In this document: positions 2-5,756 of the stretch, one piece after another | Position numbering within the stretch: position 1 is the stretch's first letter | How the letters are laid out: each line of letters opens with the position of its first letter | Origin: an uncultured Eubacteriales bacterium | Lineage (GTDB): Bacteria; Bacillota; Clostridia; Lachnospirales; Lachnospiraceae | Direction: 5' to 3' | Assembly (NCBI GenBank): GCA_900313855.1 | Contig: OMSZ01000126.1 | Location: forward strand, 1-5,756 | DNA: 5,756 bases | Translations under genes and position numbers: made by a program | Notes under the pieces: generated by a model | Databases searched by the model: none | What the model was told of the DNA's origin: nothing | The model's input: only the letters and a program-made list of their open reading frames with translations

Positions 2-1708
2 CTCTCACGTGAAGATCTTGACAAGATCGAGGCTGAGATGAAGAAGGTTGTCAAAGAGAATCTTCCTATTAAAAGATTCACACTTGGCAGGGCTGAGGCT
101 ATCAAGTTCATGCAGGATAGAAATGAGCCTTACAAGGTTGAGCTTATCGAGGATCTGCCGGAGGATGCTGAGCTTTCCTTCTACGAGCAGGGTGAGTTCA
201 CAGATCTTTGCGCAGGACCACATCTTATGAGCACCAAGCCTGTTAAGTTCTTCAAGCTTACATCATCATCAGGCGCATACTGGAGAGGTGATTCAAACAA
301 GAAAATGCTCACACGTATCTACGGAACCGCCTATACCAAGAAGGAAGATCTTGAAGAACGTCTTGCATTCTTAGAGACGATTAGAGAGCGTGACCACAAC
401 AGACTCGGACGCGAGCTTGAGCTTTTCACAACCGTTGATGTTATCGGACAGGGACTTCCGCTCTTCATGCCTAAGGGAACAAAGATCATCCAGACCCTGC
501 AGCGCTGGATCGAGGATCTTGAGGATAATGAGTGGGGCTATGTAAGAACACGTACTCCGCTTATGGCAAAGAGCAATCTTTACAAGCTTTCAGATCACTG
601 GTTCCACTACAAGGATGGAATGTTCGTATTAAATGATGACGACAATGATACAGATGATCCTTCGGCTTACGCTGATCCTGAGACCTGCTTAAAGCACGCA
701 CAGGAGAATGTTCATCTTAACGCTGACGGCAAGGAGGTTATGGCGCTTCGCCCTATGACCTGCCCGTTCCAGTATTTCGTATATAAGGCAAAGCCTAAGA
801 GCTACAGAGATCTCCCATACCGTATGGGCGAAACCTCTACACTTTTCCGTAACGAGGATTCCGGTGAAATGCACGGACTTACACGTGTAAGACAGTTCAC
901 AATCTCAGAGGGACATCTTGTATGTACTCCCGAGCAGATCAAGGATGAGTTCAAGAACTGTGTTGCTCTTGCAAAATACTGTCTTACAACCTTAGGCGTT
1001 GAAGAGGATGTAACCTACCGTATGTCAAAATGGGATCCTAACGATTCAGACAAATATCTTGGTACTGCTGATGATTGGAACAAGGTTCAGAACTACATGA
1101 GAGAGATCTTAGATGAGATCGGTCTTGACTATGTTGAGGCTGACGGAGAGGCAGCATTTTACGGACCTAAGCTTGACATCCAGGCTAAGAACGTATATGG
1201 CAAAGAGGATACAATGATAACTATCCAGCTTGATATGTTCTTATCAAAGCGTTATGACATGACCTATGTTGATAAGGACGGCGAGAAGAAATATCCATAC
1301 ATCATCCACAGAACATCAATGGGATGCTATGAGAGAACTCTCGCATGGCTTATTGAAAAATATGCCGGCGCATTCCCTACATGGCTTGCCCCTGAGCAGG
1401 TTCGTATCCTTCCTATATCAGAGAAGTTCCATGAGTATGGTAATGAGATACTTGCAGAGCTTAAGAAGAACGGTATCCTTGCTACTATGGATGACCGTGC
1501 AGAGAAGATCGGATACAAGATCCGTGAGGCAAGATTGCAGAAGCTTCCTTATATGTTGGTTGTAGGCGCGAACGAGCAGGAGAACAAGACCGTTTCTGTC
1601 AGAAAGCGTGGAGAAGACGGTGATCTCGGAGCTATGGAGCTTAGCACATTTATTAATAAGATCTGTGAGGAGATCAGAACCAAATCGCTCACACAAATGG
1701 AAGTATAA
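2..1708 (+). CDS. thrS: Threonyl-tRNA synthetase, 5'-truncated by window edge
   Basis: This cytoplasmic class II aminoacyl-tRNA synthetase charges tRNA-Thr with threonine using ATP. The frame is open from base 2, so the ATG at 38 is an internal Met (residue 13 of the 568 visible), not the start. The TGS domain and the first part of the editing domain lie outside the window; by E. coli numbering about 110 residues are missing. The editing-domain motif DLCAGPH is present (Cys70, His74 of the fragment). The catalytic core follows: motif 2 around YRMGETSTLFRNEDSG, and motif 3 in HRTSMGCYERTLAWLIE. The three expected zinc ligands appear as Cys254 (RPMTCP), His305 (SEGHLVC) and His436 (HRTSMG). The C-terminal anticodon-binding domain starts near PTWLAPEQVRILP and runs to the end. 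An acidic insertion of about 30 residues precedes the zinc Cys, and several core motifs differ from the E. coli and Bacillus versions (RPMTCPFQ for RPMNCPGH; FTISEGH for FTQDDAH). Any T-box leader would lie outside the window. Confidence 0.97.
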   Translation, partial: LSREDLDKIEAEMKKVVKENLPIKRFTLGRAEAIKFMQDRNEPYKVELIEDLPEDAELSFYEQGEFTDLCAGPHLMSTKPVKFFKLTSSSGAYWRGDSNKKMLTRIYGTAYTKKEDLEERLAFLETIRERDHNRLGRELELFTTVDVIGQGLPLFMPKGTKIIQTLQRWIEDLEDNEWGYVRTRTPLMAKSNLYKLSDHWFHYKDGMFVLNDDDNDTDDPSAYADPETCLKHAQENVHLNADGKEVMALRPMTCPFQYFVYKAKPKSYRDLPYRMGETSTLFRNEDSGEMHGLTRVRQFTISEGHLVCTPEQIKDEFKNCVALAKYCLTTLGVEEDVTYRMSKWDPNDSDKYLGTADDWNKVQNYMREILDEIGLDYVEADGEAAFYGPKLDIQAKNVYGKEDTMITIQLDMFLSKRYDMTYVDKDGEKKYPYIIHRTSMGCYERTLAWLIEKYAGAFPTWLAPEQVRILPISEKFHEYGNEILAELKKNGILATMDDRAEKIGYKIREARLQKLPYMLVVGANEQENKTVSVRKRGEDGDLGAMELSTFINKICEEIRTKSLTQMEV

Positions 1709-1796: not shown

Positions 1797-4466
1797 TTAT
1801 TCATCAAAGTACATGAATCCGAAGGTTCCCGGTCCACAGTTTACCGCGATGGCAGGCGATGCCTTCTGGAAGAATATATGATCAAACTCAACCCTGTCTC
1901 CTATCATTTCCTTGATAAGATCAAGCTCCCTCTGGTTAATACCCACATAAGTTACAAACAGCACTCTGCGATCGACCTTATCCATTCTTCCGATCACCCT
2001 GTCTATATACTTTTTCCAGGCACGCTCTTTTCTTCCGAAGAAGAAACCGCCAACCTTCATATCACCATTCTTAACCTTAAGCATCGGATGAACAGAAAAT
2101 GCCCTCATGATATCCGCAATATGATCATTTAACTGTCCGGCTCTTGCCAGATAATCCAGGCTTTCAACAATAAATGTTGTCCTAACCTTATCCTTTAGCA
2201 CCTCAAGTCTTTCGATAATCTCATCAACGCTCTTCCCGGCTTCTGCCATACGGCACGCTGCAAGAACCATCAGACCCTGTCCGCTTGAGAGCTGTGTGGT
2301 ATCATAAACAGTAACATTATCAAATATTCCGGCCGCCTCCGTTGCTATCGCGCATCCGCTATTGTTAAGCTTTCCGGAGATTGAAAGATGGATAACATTA
2401 TTGGCATTTGCCAGCTGATTGGCAAAGAATGCCTCGTGTTCACTAACAGTCGGAGCCTTTGTCCATGCGGCATTACCCTCCTTCATATATGCAAGCAGCC
2501 CCTTAGAATCTATCTCCAATCCATCTGCGAATATTCCATCCTCCGTCTCAACTCTGTGTGGAATAAGACCAATGTTATGCTTTTTGACAAGCTCCTTTGG
2601 TATATCCGCCACACTCTCAGTAGATATCACAACGCCGACCTTCTTCTTGTGTTTGTTCATCCACGCCATACTTTCTTCGAGAATGGTCGAATCATCATTG
2701 GTAACTATGACCAGATCACGCTGCAGCTGTCTGTATAACTCCTGCTCTAGAGCCTCGCCGCTTACAGGCTTAACAAGATATCCGTCAAAGCCCTCACGCA
2801 CATAAAGCGCCTTGTTATCAGCATCGGCATTAGCAGTAAGGATAACCATTTTGGCATTCTTACTTCTGCCACCCGCCTGGGTTCTGATCTTCTGCGTACA
2901 TTCTATTCCATCCATTTCCGGCATCATATGATCCATGAAAATAACATGGTATTCCTTTTCCAAGGTCTTTTCAAGAGCAACCGCACCACTCTCGACCGTA
3001 TCAATATTAACCTTGGTTTCCCGCAAAAGCTTAGTCACAACCATAAGGTTCGACACATTATCATCCACAACAAGGATCCTTGCCTCAGGTGCCTCAAAGC
3101 TGTTGTGGTAAACCTTCTTTTCGTGAAGTGCCGCGCGGTTTTCTATGCCGAATTCTCCAACCGCATTCTCATCCGTAATCTTTCCTGGTATCTCGATAAT
3201 AAATGTTGAGCCCTTGGAATAAACACTGTTGACCGTGATCTTACCACCCATCATGTCAACAAACTGCTTAACAATGGAAAGTCCCAATCCGGTACCCTCT
3301 ATATATTTGTTTCTCTCCTCATCCACACGCTTAAAAGCAGTAAAAAGATACGGGATATTCTCCTTCTTTATTCCTATTCCGGTATCCGTCACCGTGTAGA
3401 TAACATTGGCCATCCCATCCTCTTTTCTCTCACACTGGATCGAGAGATTGACCGAACCCGTCTTGGTATATTTGATAGAATTATTGATAACATTAATAAG
3501 TATCTGCTTGATCCTGACTTCATCACCAAGATATCCTGCCGGCATATCAGGAGCAAGATCCACATGGAACTCCAGTCCTTTTTCCTTGGCACGGATCCAC
3601 AGCATACCGACAACATCCGAAAGCATATCTCCTATATTATATGGCTCAGAGCTTAGCGTCATCTGCCCCGACTCAAGCTTGGACATATCAAGAATATCAT
3701 TGGTAAGATGAAGAAGCATCTTACTTGCAGACTGGATATTGGCAGCATTTTCCGCCACCTCCTTTGATACATCCTCACGAAGTATCATTTCATTCAAACC
3801 TATAATGGTGTTGATCGGCGTTCTGATCTCATGACTCATGCTTGAGAAGAAATGGCTCTTTGCCGAAGTGATATCCTCTATCTCACGACGGCGTTCCTCC
3901 GCCTCTTTATTCTCATGATTATACATTTTGATAACAAAGGTTATCATGATGTTGACTGCGCACATTATAAGGAGCAGGGAAATAAATGAATCCATATACG
4001 CCACCGTGTTGTTGTGTTCCGTAACATACTGCGGATAATGATAAGCATAACCATAGCACAACAGTGTCATAACAACCTGCGCAAAGAAGAAGAATTTTTT
4101 CACCCAGCCCTTTAGTGTCAGACTGGTGAAAAGAATCGCAAGTATGAACCACAGCGGTCCTCCGCCGTATATACCTCCGCCGGTAAAGAATGTAACCGGA
4201 AGCAGAAAGAACACTATTATAATTGAAAAGACTGTCGCCATAATTCCGATCATCTTCTTGCGTATGGCAATAACACTAAGCAGCGCTGCAATAACGATAG
4301 CACCGCCGAGCATCAAAAGATCCGTAAAGGTCTCGCCTATCAAGGCTCCAACAATGAATATGATCACCATTGCAAGAAGAGCCACACAGGAAAGAAGTAC
4401 AAAAAGCCTGTTTTCAAAGCTTAGATCTGATTCAAATAACATTTTTCTCAATTTCTTGAAAAGCAT
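1797..4466 (-). CDS. Membrane hybrid sensor histidine kinase with receiver and C-terminal DegV-like domain
   Basis: This 889-residue protein is predicted to be a membrane sensor kinase that autophosphorylates on His and passes phosphate to its own receiver. Domains in order: a basic N-terminus (1-20); six hydrophobic helices at about 20-44, 47-68, 73-95, 104-118, 124-142 and 157-180, with charges fitting the positive-inside rule; a short charged linker (184-200); HisKA with SHEIRTP (phospho-His212); HATPase_c with N-box Asn325/Asn329, G1 DTGIGI (361-366) and G2 GTGLGLSI (391-398); a receiver at about 463-580 with Asp468/Asp469, phospho-acceptor Asp512 (MDHMMPEMDG), Thr544 and Lys566-Pro567; a linker; then a DegV-like domain (about 608-889). 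DegV hallmarks are ESVADIPKEL, YDTTQLSSGQG, FIVESLDYLARAGQL, GRKERAWKK and a terminal CGPGTFG. DegV proteins bind fatty acids, and the FakB members present them to FakA kinase; that role here is inference. The ATG at 4466 has AGGAGG nine bases upstream. The gene is 15 bases downstream of a receiver/HPt gene. All kinase and receiver catalytic residues look intact. No large extracytoplasmic domain is seen, so the signal may be sensed in or near the membrane. The ligand is unknown. Confidence 0.93.
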   Translation of the reverse strand: MLFKKLRKMLFESDLSFENRLFVLLSCVALLAMVIIFIVGALIGETFTDLLMLGGAIVIAALLSVIAIRKKMIGIMATVFSIIIVFFLLPVTFFTGGGIYGGGPLWFILAILFTSLTLKGWVKKFFFFAQVVMTLLCYGYAYHYPQYVTEHNNTVAYMDSFISLLLIMCAVNIMITFVIKMYNHENKEAEERRREIEDITSAKSHFFSSMSHEIRTPINTIIGLNEMILREDVSKEVAENAANIQSASKMLLHLTNDILDMSKLESGQMTLSSEPYNIGDMLSDVVGMLWIRAKEKGLEFHVDLAPDMPAGYLGDEVRIKQILINVINNSIKYTKTGSVNLSIQCERKEDGMANVIYTVTDTGIGIKKENIPYLFTAFKRVDEERNKYIEGTGLGLSIVKQFVDMMGGKITVNSVYSKGSTFIIEIPGKITDENAVGEFGIENRAALHEKKVYHNSFEAPEARILVVDDNVSNLMVVTKLLRETKVNIDTVESGAVALEKTLEKEYHVIFMDHMMPEMDGIECTQKIRTQAGGRSKNAKMVILTANADADNKALYVREGFDGYLVKPVSGEALEQELYRQLQRDLVIVTNDDSTILEESMAWMNKHKKKVGVVISTESVADIPKELVKKHNIGLIPHRVETEDGIFADGLEIDSKGLLAYMKEGNAAWTKAPTVSEHEAFFANQLANANNVIHLSISGKLNNSGCAIATEAAGIFDNVTVYDTTQLSSGQGLMVLAACRMAEAGKSVDEIIERLEVLKDKVRTTFIVESLDYLARAGQLNDHIADIMRAFSVHPMLKVKNGDMKVGGFFFGRKERAWKKYIDRVIGRMDKVDRRVLFVTYVGINQRELDLIKEMIGDRVEFDHIFFQKASPAIAVNCGPGTFGFMYFDE

Positions 4467-4475
4467 GAGTAAGCT

Positions 4476-4481
4476 CCTCCT
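4476..4481 (-). promoter_or_regulatory. Strong Shine-Dalgarno site for the kinase-DegV gene
   Basis: The minus strand reads AGGAGG, then nine bases, then ATG at 4466-4464. The site lies entirely in the 15-base gap after the upstream stop codon (4482-4484). It supports the chosen start over the later in-frame Met at residue 9 and indicates independent translation within one operon. No promoter is visible in this gap. Confidence 0.88.
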
Positions 4482-5756
4482 CTATTCTTCCGGCAGGAAT
4501 TCAAGAATTTCGGAATCGAAATCCATTTCCTTAAAATCATGAATGTCATCCGGATTAAATTCAATAACATCATCTTCTTCCGACGAACTGTTCATCACAA
4601 CATCCTCAACGCCGAAAGTCATCTTGATCCCGTTAGTTATATTCTCATACCGCATAAACATATCTTCATGATTCTTTTCTATATACGCACTGTCACCGGT
4701 CTTGGCCGCATCCTCTAAGAGTCGTGCTTTTTCCGAAAGCTCCATTGCGCCTATCATCTTTGCGGTACTTTTAAGCGCATGGACAAGTATTGCATAATTG
4801 CCAAGCTCACCGCTCTCGAAATATCTCTCCATATCAACCTTCTTAGTCATCGATTCCGTAGCGAACTGAATAACAAGGGATTTGTAGAAGCCTCTGTCAT
4901 TCTGACAATACCGAAGCCCGTTTTCGGTATCTATGCCTAGCTCTTTGAGTGCATCTAAAGCCTTATTGGCGCCACCTTCAGATACATCCTTTTCCACAGT
5001 CTTTTCATATGTGATAGCCGATACCGGAAGAACACGCTTAAGCACGCGCTCTAACTCCTCCTGCTCTATAGGCTTGCTGACAAATCCGTCAAAGCCTTCC
5101 CTGATGAACATCTCCTTAGCCGAGCTTACCGCATTAGCTGTAAGGGCAACTATCGGGAATTCCTCGTGTTTTCTTGAAGCTTCGGTACGGATCCTCTTCA
5201 TCGCCTCAACGCCGTCCATTCCCGGCATCATGTGATCCATGAATACAAGGTCGTAGCTGTTCTTCTTACATCTGCTTATAGCCTCAATTCCCGAATCCGC
5301 TGTTGCGACTATCATTCCATAACTTCCGAATATACCCATTGCAACAGTAAGATTCATCGGCTCATCGTCCACAACAAGAACACGAACGTTTCGACAGAAC
5401 ATCTTGCCTTCCTCTGTCTCCTCGTCATTTATACTATTGATAGCGGAAGCGATAGGGAAGCAGTAGAACGGTTTTCTTATAATCCTTACCCTTGAACCTA
5501 ACGGGAGCTTGAAATTCTCACCCGCAACCACCTCAATGCGGACAGTCTTAGAAAGCTCGGTCATGAAATCAACATCCTTTTCATATTCGTCCTCTCCAAC
5601 GAAAAGATGAGTAAGCTCGATCTGTTTGACAAGCTTCTTAAGATTCTCAATATTATCAACCCTGTGCAGATTGACCTTAAGTCCCTCCGCAATATTTCTA
5701 ACTGTATTATTGTAGTACTCTCTGACATTGGGATTGGCGTATTTGTCAAAATGAAG
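4482..5756 (-). CDS. Multidomain phosphorelay protein (degenerate receiver, receiver, HPt), 5'-truncated by window edge
   Basis: The frame is open to the right edge: 64 codons precede the Met at 5564, giving 424 visible residues. That Met falls inside a domain, so it is not the true start. Residues about 1-110 resemble a degenerate receiver: a strand at THLFVG where the acceptor Asp is expected, a strand at VRIEVVAG, and a retained Lys-Pro in RIIRKPFYCFPIASAIN (Lys95-Pro96). Residues about 123-244 are a canonical receiver: VDDEP (Asp130/Asp131), acceptor Asp174 in MDHMMPGMDG, LTAN, and Lys228-Pro229. Residues about 272-382 form an HPt domain with phospho-His326 in HALKSTAKMIGA. An acidic tail (about 383-424) ends the protein. 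In known hybrid kinases of the BarA type, receiver and HPt domains follow a HisKA/HATPase core; a kinase core upstream of the window is likely but unseen. The protein probably relays phosphate from its receiver to His326 and on to another receiver, possibly that of the downstream kinase-DegV protein, whose gene follows after 15 bases. It could instead be a kinase-less relay protein. Confidence 0.9.
   Translation of the reverse strand, partial: LHFDKYANPNVREYYNNTVRNIAEGLKVNLHRVDNIENLKKLVKQIELTHLFVGEDEYEKDVDFMTELSKTVRIEVVAGENFKLPLGSRVRIIRKPFYCFPIASAINSINDEETEEGKMFCRNVRVLVVDDEPMNLTVAMGIFGSYGMIVATADSGIEAISRCKKNSYDLVFMDHMMPGMDGVEAMKRIRTEASRKHEEFPIVALTANAVSSAKEMFIREGFDGFVSKPIEQEELERVLKRVLPVSAITYEKTVEKDVSEGGANKALDALKELGIDTENGLRYCQNDRGFYKSLVIQFATESMTKKVDMERYFESGELGNYAILVHALKSTAKMIGAMELSEKARLLEDAAKTGDSAYIEKNHEDMFMRYENITNGIKMTFGVEDVVMNSSSEEDDVIEFNPDDIHDFKEMDFDSEILEFLPEE

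Follow-up and report, generated by a model that had tools for sequence, protein, structure and literature searches.

The window analysed here, the whole 5756-base contig OMSZ01000126.1 (one of the 425 contigs of its genome), raised the question of what a DegV domain does at the C-terminus of a hybrid histidine kinase. DegV proteins are chiefly known for delivering fatty acids to FakA. The gene in question (positions 1797 to 4466, minus strand) encoded an 889-residue protein, in which a membrane region of six predicted helices was followed by HisKA, HATPase_c, receiver and DegV domains. Our results confirmed the kinase-DegV fusion as real. The interpretation that we put at about an even chance is that the DegV tail, in which residues needed by FakB carriers are missing, is a ligand sensor that would tune a two-kinase phosphorelay.

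The initial annotation had described one uninterrupted 889-codon frame joining a sensor kinase and an intact receiver to a complete DegV fold, and these points were borne out. The frame ran from an ATG at 4466 to 1797 with zero internal stops under translation table 11; the strand, which had not been given before, was the minus strand. Pfam placed in one chain the HisKA dimerisation and phosphoacceptor domain (residues 202-267, positions 3666 to 3863, with His212), HATPase_c (residues 314-427, 3186 to 3527), a Response_reg receiver (residues 464-576, 2739 to 3077, with the phospho-acceptor Asp512) and DegV PF02645 (residues 613-887, 1806 to 2630), all on the minus strand. The PF02645 match scored 156.9 bits against a cut-off of 27 and covered profile positions 3-278 of 280, and the NCBIfam model TIGR00762 for DegV scored 165.7 bits against a cut-off of 99.7. 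H212, N329, the three G2-box glycines, D512 and T544 were identical in 81/81 aligned fusion sequences, every one of which thus carried the HisKA histidine, the N and G boxes and the receiver Asp and Thr of a hybrid histidine kinase.

The six membrane helices proposed earlier (residues 17-180, 3927 to 4418, minus strand) agreed with the full-length model, in which helices were predicted at residues 17-43, 47-70, 73-95, 103-117, 120-143 and from 153 onward; from a crude scan of hydropathy, only three windows emerged between residue 17 and about 180. The full-length model had a predicted local distance difference test score (pLDDT) of 80 and a predicted template modelling score (pTM) of 0.41, and at such a pTM the relative placement of the domains is untrustworthy. 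The stretch between the receiver and DegV (residues 591-607, 2646 to 2696, minus strand) had a pLDDT below 50 and is a predicted flexible linker. The isolated DegV domain modelled at pLDDT 96 with the predicted two-lobed EDD fold, and the nearest solved structures to this model were DegV/FakB proteins, many of them titled as fatty-acid-bound.

The architecture was common among relatives. A database search with residues 560-889 returned 914 proteins at E <= 1e-3; DegV and a receiver were present in all of the 120 that were listed, and HisKA and HATPase too in 114 of them, one being the window's own protein. These matches carried the automatic name "DegV family EDD domain-containing protein", as expected from the earlier suggestion that an uncharacterised family might already lie in the databases. 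A scan of genome contigs found at least 599 stretches, from which 80 loci were kept for analysis; 78 of them gave 80 fusion frames (the frame of L040 was cut at the contig end), and L015 and L033 gave none. Because the relatives carry all four domains in many independent assemblies, and translation with table 11 leaves the frame open, an assembly artefact or missed stop was ruled out. Hybrid kinases, histidine phosphotransfer (Hpt) relays and DegV are each of a known kind, and their combination stands in the databases under the automatic DegV name. Literature searches, whose coverage left out most subscription journals, showed among the papers listed none on a kinase-DegV fusion.

Members of the FakB/DegV family (PF02645, COG1307; S. 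aureus FakB1 5uto, 4x9x, Thermus 2dt8) are stand-alone proteins, whereas here the fold is the C-terminal domain of a kinase. In Staphylococcus aureus FakB1, according to PMC8892158, Thr62, Ser95, Ser171 and His270 form a network around the fatty-acid carboxylate, Arg173 and Arg205 are completely conserved in FakB and essential, and Arg205 is needed for contact with the membrane and FakA (further FakB and FakA background in PMC10138225 and PMC11617999). The printed FakB1 sequence carries these residues at the cited numbers, and alignment to it gave T, N, A, Q, F and N in the window at positions 62, 95, 171, 173, 205 and 270. Thr62 was kept as Thr669 (2460 to 2462); Ser95 was replaced by Asn701 (2364 to 2366), Ser171 by Ala776 (2139 to 2141), the catalytic or lid residue Arg173 by Gln778 (2133 to 2135), the FakA- and membrane-contacting Arg205 by Phe810 (2037 to 2039), and His270 of the carboxylate network by Asn876 (1839 to 1841), all on the minus strand. 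Both arginines were therefore missing, and of the network only the threonine remained. The motifs previously read as DegV hallmarks (ESVADIP, DTTQLSSGQG, ESLDYLARAGQ and CGPGTFG) were all present, but the end of ...ARAGQ holds Gln in place of Arg173 and AVNCGPG holds Asn in place of His270, and the residues Gln778, Phe810 and Asn876 gave no support to the reading of the domain as a functional lipid binder of the FakB kind.

The replacements were followed in two sets, 111 full-length rows of close relatives and 81 wider fusion domains (the 80 frames and the window). In the close relatives, position 173 was Gln in 111/111, position 270 was Asn in 110/111, and position 205 was never Arg (F 92, L 13, M 3, V 2, I 1). 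Arg205 was kept in one of the 81 wider domains and elsewhere replaced mostly by hydrophobic residues (F 26, M 16, I 11, L 8, V 7), and position 270 held Asn in 71, His in two and other residues in seven, L040 being unreadable. No fusion domain among the 81 showed two of Arg173, Arg205 and His270. As controls, 31 stand-alone DegVs were taken without regard to gene context, namely 29 of the best PF02645 scorers (30 loci, of which L111 gave no frame) and two from the window's genome, a choice possibly biased toward canonical residues; all three residues were present in 29/31 and two in 2/31, with Arg205 in 31/31. Position 171 was Gly in 31/31 controls, which makes it a weak mark of FakB. In 18 unfused DegVs, the nearest kin of the fusions among those fetched, the triad was complete in 18/18. 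The key-residue replacements in the 111 and 81 rows, set against the stand-alone controls, ruled out that the domain is an ordinary FakB. The loss of these residues is not decay, since the DegV domain is well conserved overall (mean column identity of 50% over 46 diverse rows). Ten positions were fusion-specific at the limits set: T641, G644, F646, F680, A688, F715, N717, V718, D832 and S870. The window's genome, 80% complete, contained two canonical stand-alone DegVs and FakA, by which the FakB function is covered elsewhere in that genome; two more DegV matches were cut by contig ends.

The fusion gene did not stand alone. The 3' part of a second hybrid kinase gene (4482 to 5756, minus strand, where the contig ends) preceded it with a gap of 15 nucleotides, which contained an AGGAGG ribosome-binding-like site (4476 to 4481, minus strand) 9 nucleotides upstream of the fusion-gene ATG. 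This partner comprised a receiver (5040 to 5381) and an Hpt domain with the motif HALKS (4689 to 4877, found by Pfam and a local Hpt profile), both on the minus strand, and, ahead of the receiver, a conserved stretch of about 120 residues without a Pfam match (5381 to 5756). This stretch is probably a degenerate receiver, since the partner consensus has no Asp at the expected phospho-acceptor site. A same-strand gene of 640-970 amino acids lay at most 60 nucleotides upstream of the fusion gene in 74/80 cases. Pfam scans of seven partners found HisKA, HATPase, about 140-155 residues without a match, and REC in all, with an Hpt above the cut-off in four (the first of L006, L022, L078 and L034) and just below it in L009. 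Pfam found no Hpt on the second L006 partner or on the L064 partner; in the former an Hpt was placed by the local profile and the gene adjoins a separate 312-residue Hpt protein, and the fusion of L064 is of the long type described next. The complete partner of the nearest relative (L006, 870 amino acids) read HisKA-HATPase-(about 145 residues)-REC-Hpt, and the catalytic residues of the partners were conserved in 73-75 of 75 rows, depending on the position.

The fusions were of two lengths, about 780-930 amino acids, and 1114-1177 amino acids with an Hpt behind DegV; five were scanned with Pfam, of which the four long ones had the Hpt and the short one did not. All 80 fusions were then sorted with the local profile, built from 13 seeds out of the fetched loci. 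The partner carried the Hpt in the case of 43 short fusions, which themselves had none, and in 33 long ones it was on the fusion and absent from 30/30 readable partners (three partners were cut or other). The remaining four were L042 and L025, where the next gene encodes the Hpt, L007, truncated at the contig end, and L031, which has a different neighbour. An Hpt with HxxK[ST] was thus on the partner or the fusion for 76/80 fusion genes, and on both in none of the 80. The long fusions formed a single clade with L042 (support 100). That the Hpt domain changes places between the two proteins speaks strongly for their working together, and we infer phosphotransfer between the two kinases. In L006 (L006:7321-19804) the order was tandem, with REC-HD-GYP, partner, fusion, the 312-residue Hpt protein, second partner, second fusion and a 250-residue receiver protein; L035, with L006 the nearest relative of the window, had the same two-module order, whereas the window had one fusion gene, ending at a hairpin before thrS.

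In its kinase part the fusion resembled hybrid kinases of the BarA, TorS, ArcB and RcsC type, with HisKA-HATPase-REC, all signature residues and an Hpt in the operon; it was unlike them in the DegV tail and in the place of the Hpt, which lay either on the partner kinase or after DegV. Among the 25 of 144 NCBIfam rows listed, no kinase equivalog reached its cut-off, the best being TorS with 312.4 of 676.5 bits. The partner gene, the mobile Hpt and the cyclic di-GMP (c-di-GMP) genes found beside relatives go beyond the initial annotation.

The order in which the association arose was suggested by unfused DegVs. In two of 20 unfused relatives, L125 and L126, the start of DegV overlapped the final bases of a kinase gene. 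These kinases matched the partners with 614 and 593 bits (39-41% over 843 and 786 amino acids) and the fusion kinases, cut to 600 residues, with about 250 bits. Pfam read them as HisKA-HATPase-REC-Hpt, and found in their DegVs no other domain, receiver included; the next gene in L126 was REC-GGDEF. The triad was lost in both, positions 173, 205 and 270 being K, I, N in L125 and R, F, N in L126. In a 49-row tree from a quick search, they grouped with the fusions (support 100 in the Shimodaira-Hasegawa-like approximate likelihood ratio test) and outside the fusion-only branch (96); a 90-row tree, which included L138 in the wrong frame, gave support 86 for their placement. The simplest story, a lead from two cases and not a proof, is that DegV may first have become associated with the partner kinase and lost its carrier residues, and only later have been fused to the second kinase. 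No gene resembling the kinases of the operon was found in 16/18 canonical unfused loci of about 12-15 kilobases each. In L140 a partner-like gene of 951 amino acids lay about 4 kilobases off on the other strand, and the triad was kept. In L135 (L135:7004-9886) a canonical DegV overlapped a gene of 235 amino acids, followed by a kinase-like gene of 450 amino acids; this may be a further case of a DegV linked to a two-component system. In the part of PMC12688256 at hand, a DegV is mentioned near a response regulator, but only as a stand-alone protein.

The genes around the operon pointed to a possible output. The same-strand gene directly before the partner had an HD-GYP motif (12 cases) or belonged to one cluster of 446-461 amino acids (five cases), together 17 of the 67 readable operons. 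The only one of the 12 scanned with Pfam, in L006, was REC-HD; two of the five (L064 and L061) were scanned and were REC-GGDEF, as was a gene of the same size elsewhere, in L039. A gene of 791-805 amino acids stood before the partner in L009, L021 and L048, and the one scanned (L009) had GGDEF, REC and HD. Directly behind the fusion, a one-receiver protein of 251-265 amino acids was encoded in 14 loci (for example L073:13797-14552), its second half being a true receiver and its first half lacking any Pfam match. No DNA-binding output domain was found in the 15 neighbours scanned, which represented each cluster by one or a few members. C-di-GMP as the output of the relay is plausible but not general.

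The following course of events would account for these observations. An ancestral DegV, a fatty-acid carrier, would have become tied to the partner kinase, have lost the hand-over to FakA as well as the arginine for membrane docking while a pocket was retained for some hydrophobic ligand, lipid-like or other, and next have been fused to the second kinase. Ligand occupancy would alter the activity of the kinase or the relay, and phosphate would pass from His to the receiver Asp, to the Hpt His and to a response regulator, which in about one quarter of the operons may be the REC-HD-GYP or REC-GGDEF c-di-GMP enzyme encoded next door. The DegV tail is a likely sensor because the hand-over residues were lost while the fold and its conservation were kept. 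The earlier annotation had left the choice between a lipid sensor and a phosphorylation-controlled output; the DegVs of L125 and L126, which have no receiver to drive them, favour the sensor or co-regulator and disfavour a receiver-driven output. By analogy, a sensor role is also favoured because EDD-fold co-regulators exist, as judged from structure titles: DhaQ and DhaK-DhaR regulate dihydroxyacetone kinase operons. They handle dihydroxyacetone and act on transcription factors, and we know of no kinase fusion for them.

What ligand would be sensed is a further step, and a lipid is favoured only by the modelled fold. A fuller version, which we hold tentatively and consider less probable than the sensor role itself, would have the carrier captured by a kinase operon and stripped of hand-over, so that it now serves as a cytoplasmic lipid receptor through which the two-kinase relay reads the acyl pool of the membrane or a related lipid and sets c-di-GMP. 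If true, gut and rumen Clostridia would have a signal receptor of a new class; the domain is a candidate lipid input for their two-component systems. In S. aureus, SaeRS activity depends on fatty acid kinase, and loss of this enzyme raises a free fatty acid pool; the start of the abstract of that report mentions no DegV domain on the kinase (PMC5539427). With a carrier fold recruited into a kinase, this large family offers a natural experiment in the conversion of a lipid carrier into a regulator, and it supplies a clear set of residues to test.

Several points weigh against the sensor interpretation. The residue loss was non-uniform, with Arg173 kept in 25/81 and Ser95 in 51/81 wider fusions, and Thr62 was kept in the window and in 88/111 close-relative rows. 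Asn could still bond a carboxylate, so that plain fatty-acid binding stays conceivable, and a crystal of FakB1 R173A (7scl) holds palmitate according to its title. Only two unfused operonic DegVs were seen, L125 and L126, and nearness to a kinase alone is insufficient for the residue loss, since L135 keeps the triad. The c-di-GMP gene cluster was absent from the position before the partner in 50/67 operons, L009, L021 and L048 included. The ligand, the binding and the activity of the tail are all predictions from sequence.

The domain also follows an intact receiver, the usual site of output and effector domains. Together with the retained fold, this suits a DegV that acts as the output, in which the phosphorylated receiver would open or close the lipid pocket and the kinase would control the uptake, storage or release of lipid. 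We think this unlikely. The related DegV of L125 and L126 is a separate protein without a receiver, Arg205, the FakB1 residue for membrane and FakA contact according to PMC8892158, is missing in 80/81, against lipid exchange of the FakB type, and in 33 operons the Hpt lies behind DegV in the same chain, so that phosphate traffic seems to continue past it. A sensor of a non-lipid small molecule with a rebuilt pocket, comparable with the EDD-fold DhaK and DhaQ and their dihydroxyacetone, strikes us as improbable too. Quite doubtful is a ligand-less scaffold, a dimerisation or docking domain by which both kinases and the Hpt would be kept together: the mostly hydrophobic residues in place of Arg205 could mark a new protein interface and the Hpt is attached behind DegV in 33 operons, but a polar Asn876 equivalent in 71/81 would be unexpected in a mere scaffold, and the conservation extends over the whole domain. 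That the tail is still a FakB, a tethered carrier feeding the FakA of the window's genome, has the fold in its favour and is hardly credible with the essential Arg173 and Arg205 absent in the window and Arg205 gone from 80/81 fusions.

The family occurs in Clostridia of gut and rumen. The record titles of the kept loci named mostly Lachnospiraceae, and also Butyrivibrio, Pseudobutyrivibrio, Ruminococcus, Oscillospiraceae and others; one record labelled Alistipes may be contamination. The fusion was also present in records other than metagenome-assembled genomes, presumably cultured isolates: Lachnospiraceae bacterium NE2001, LC2019, V9D3004 and AD3010, Butyrivibrio sp. LC3010, VCD2006 and XPD2006, and Ruminococcus sp. 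YE71. Among 150 sampled genomes from the family of the window, 28 contained fusion frames, 39 in all (786-1162 amino acids, at least 268 bits), and in a phylum-wide sample of 299 genomes such frames were found only in the window's own family (G000, G098 and G076). In G076 (L151:5977-8758), the membrane region (266 amino acids) and the kinase-REC-DegV part (685 amino acids) lay in overlapping, different frames, either a split or a frameshift. The RUG14282 assembly had three fusion genes (L030, L040 and L054) on three contigs, and several kinase-DegV pairs may run in parallel there. DegV matches with scores of the stand-alone type within frames of 580 and 601 amino acids (L149, G029:C44:64825-65658; L150, G191:C4:16031-16888) are possibly other DegV fusions.

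Two further gene clusters were seen next to the fusions. One, of 323-335 amino acids, directly followed the long fusion in L045, L046, L052, L060 and L067, and its scanned member (L045) was DUF6976; the other, of 345-517 amino acids, lay near the fusion in 16 loci and is presumably an AlsT-type symporter. On the other side of the fusion gene in the window, thrS (2 to 1708, plus strand, 5' end missing) was convergent to it. Between the two genes was an A+T-rich hairpin with a 20-pair stem (1737 to 1780). It was not among the hits of a consensus terminator scan of the window; read from 1780 to 1737 it had a folding energy of -22.9 kcal/mol with a z of -7.9, and it is probably a two-way terminator.

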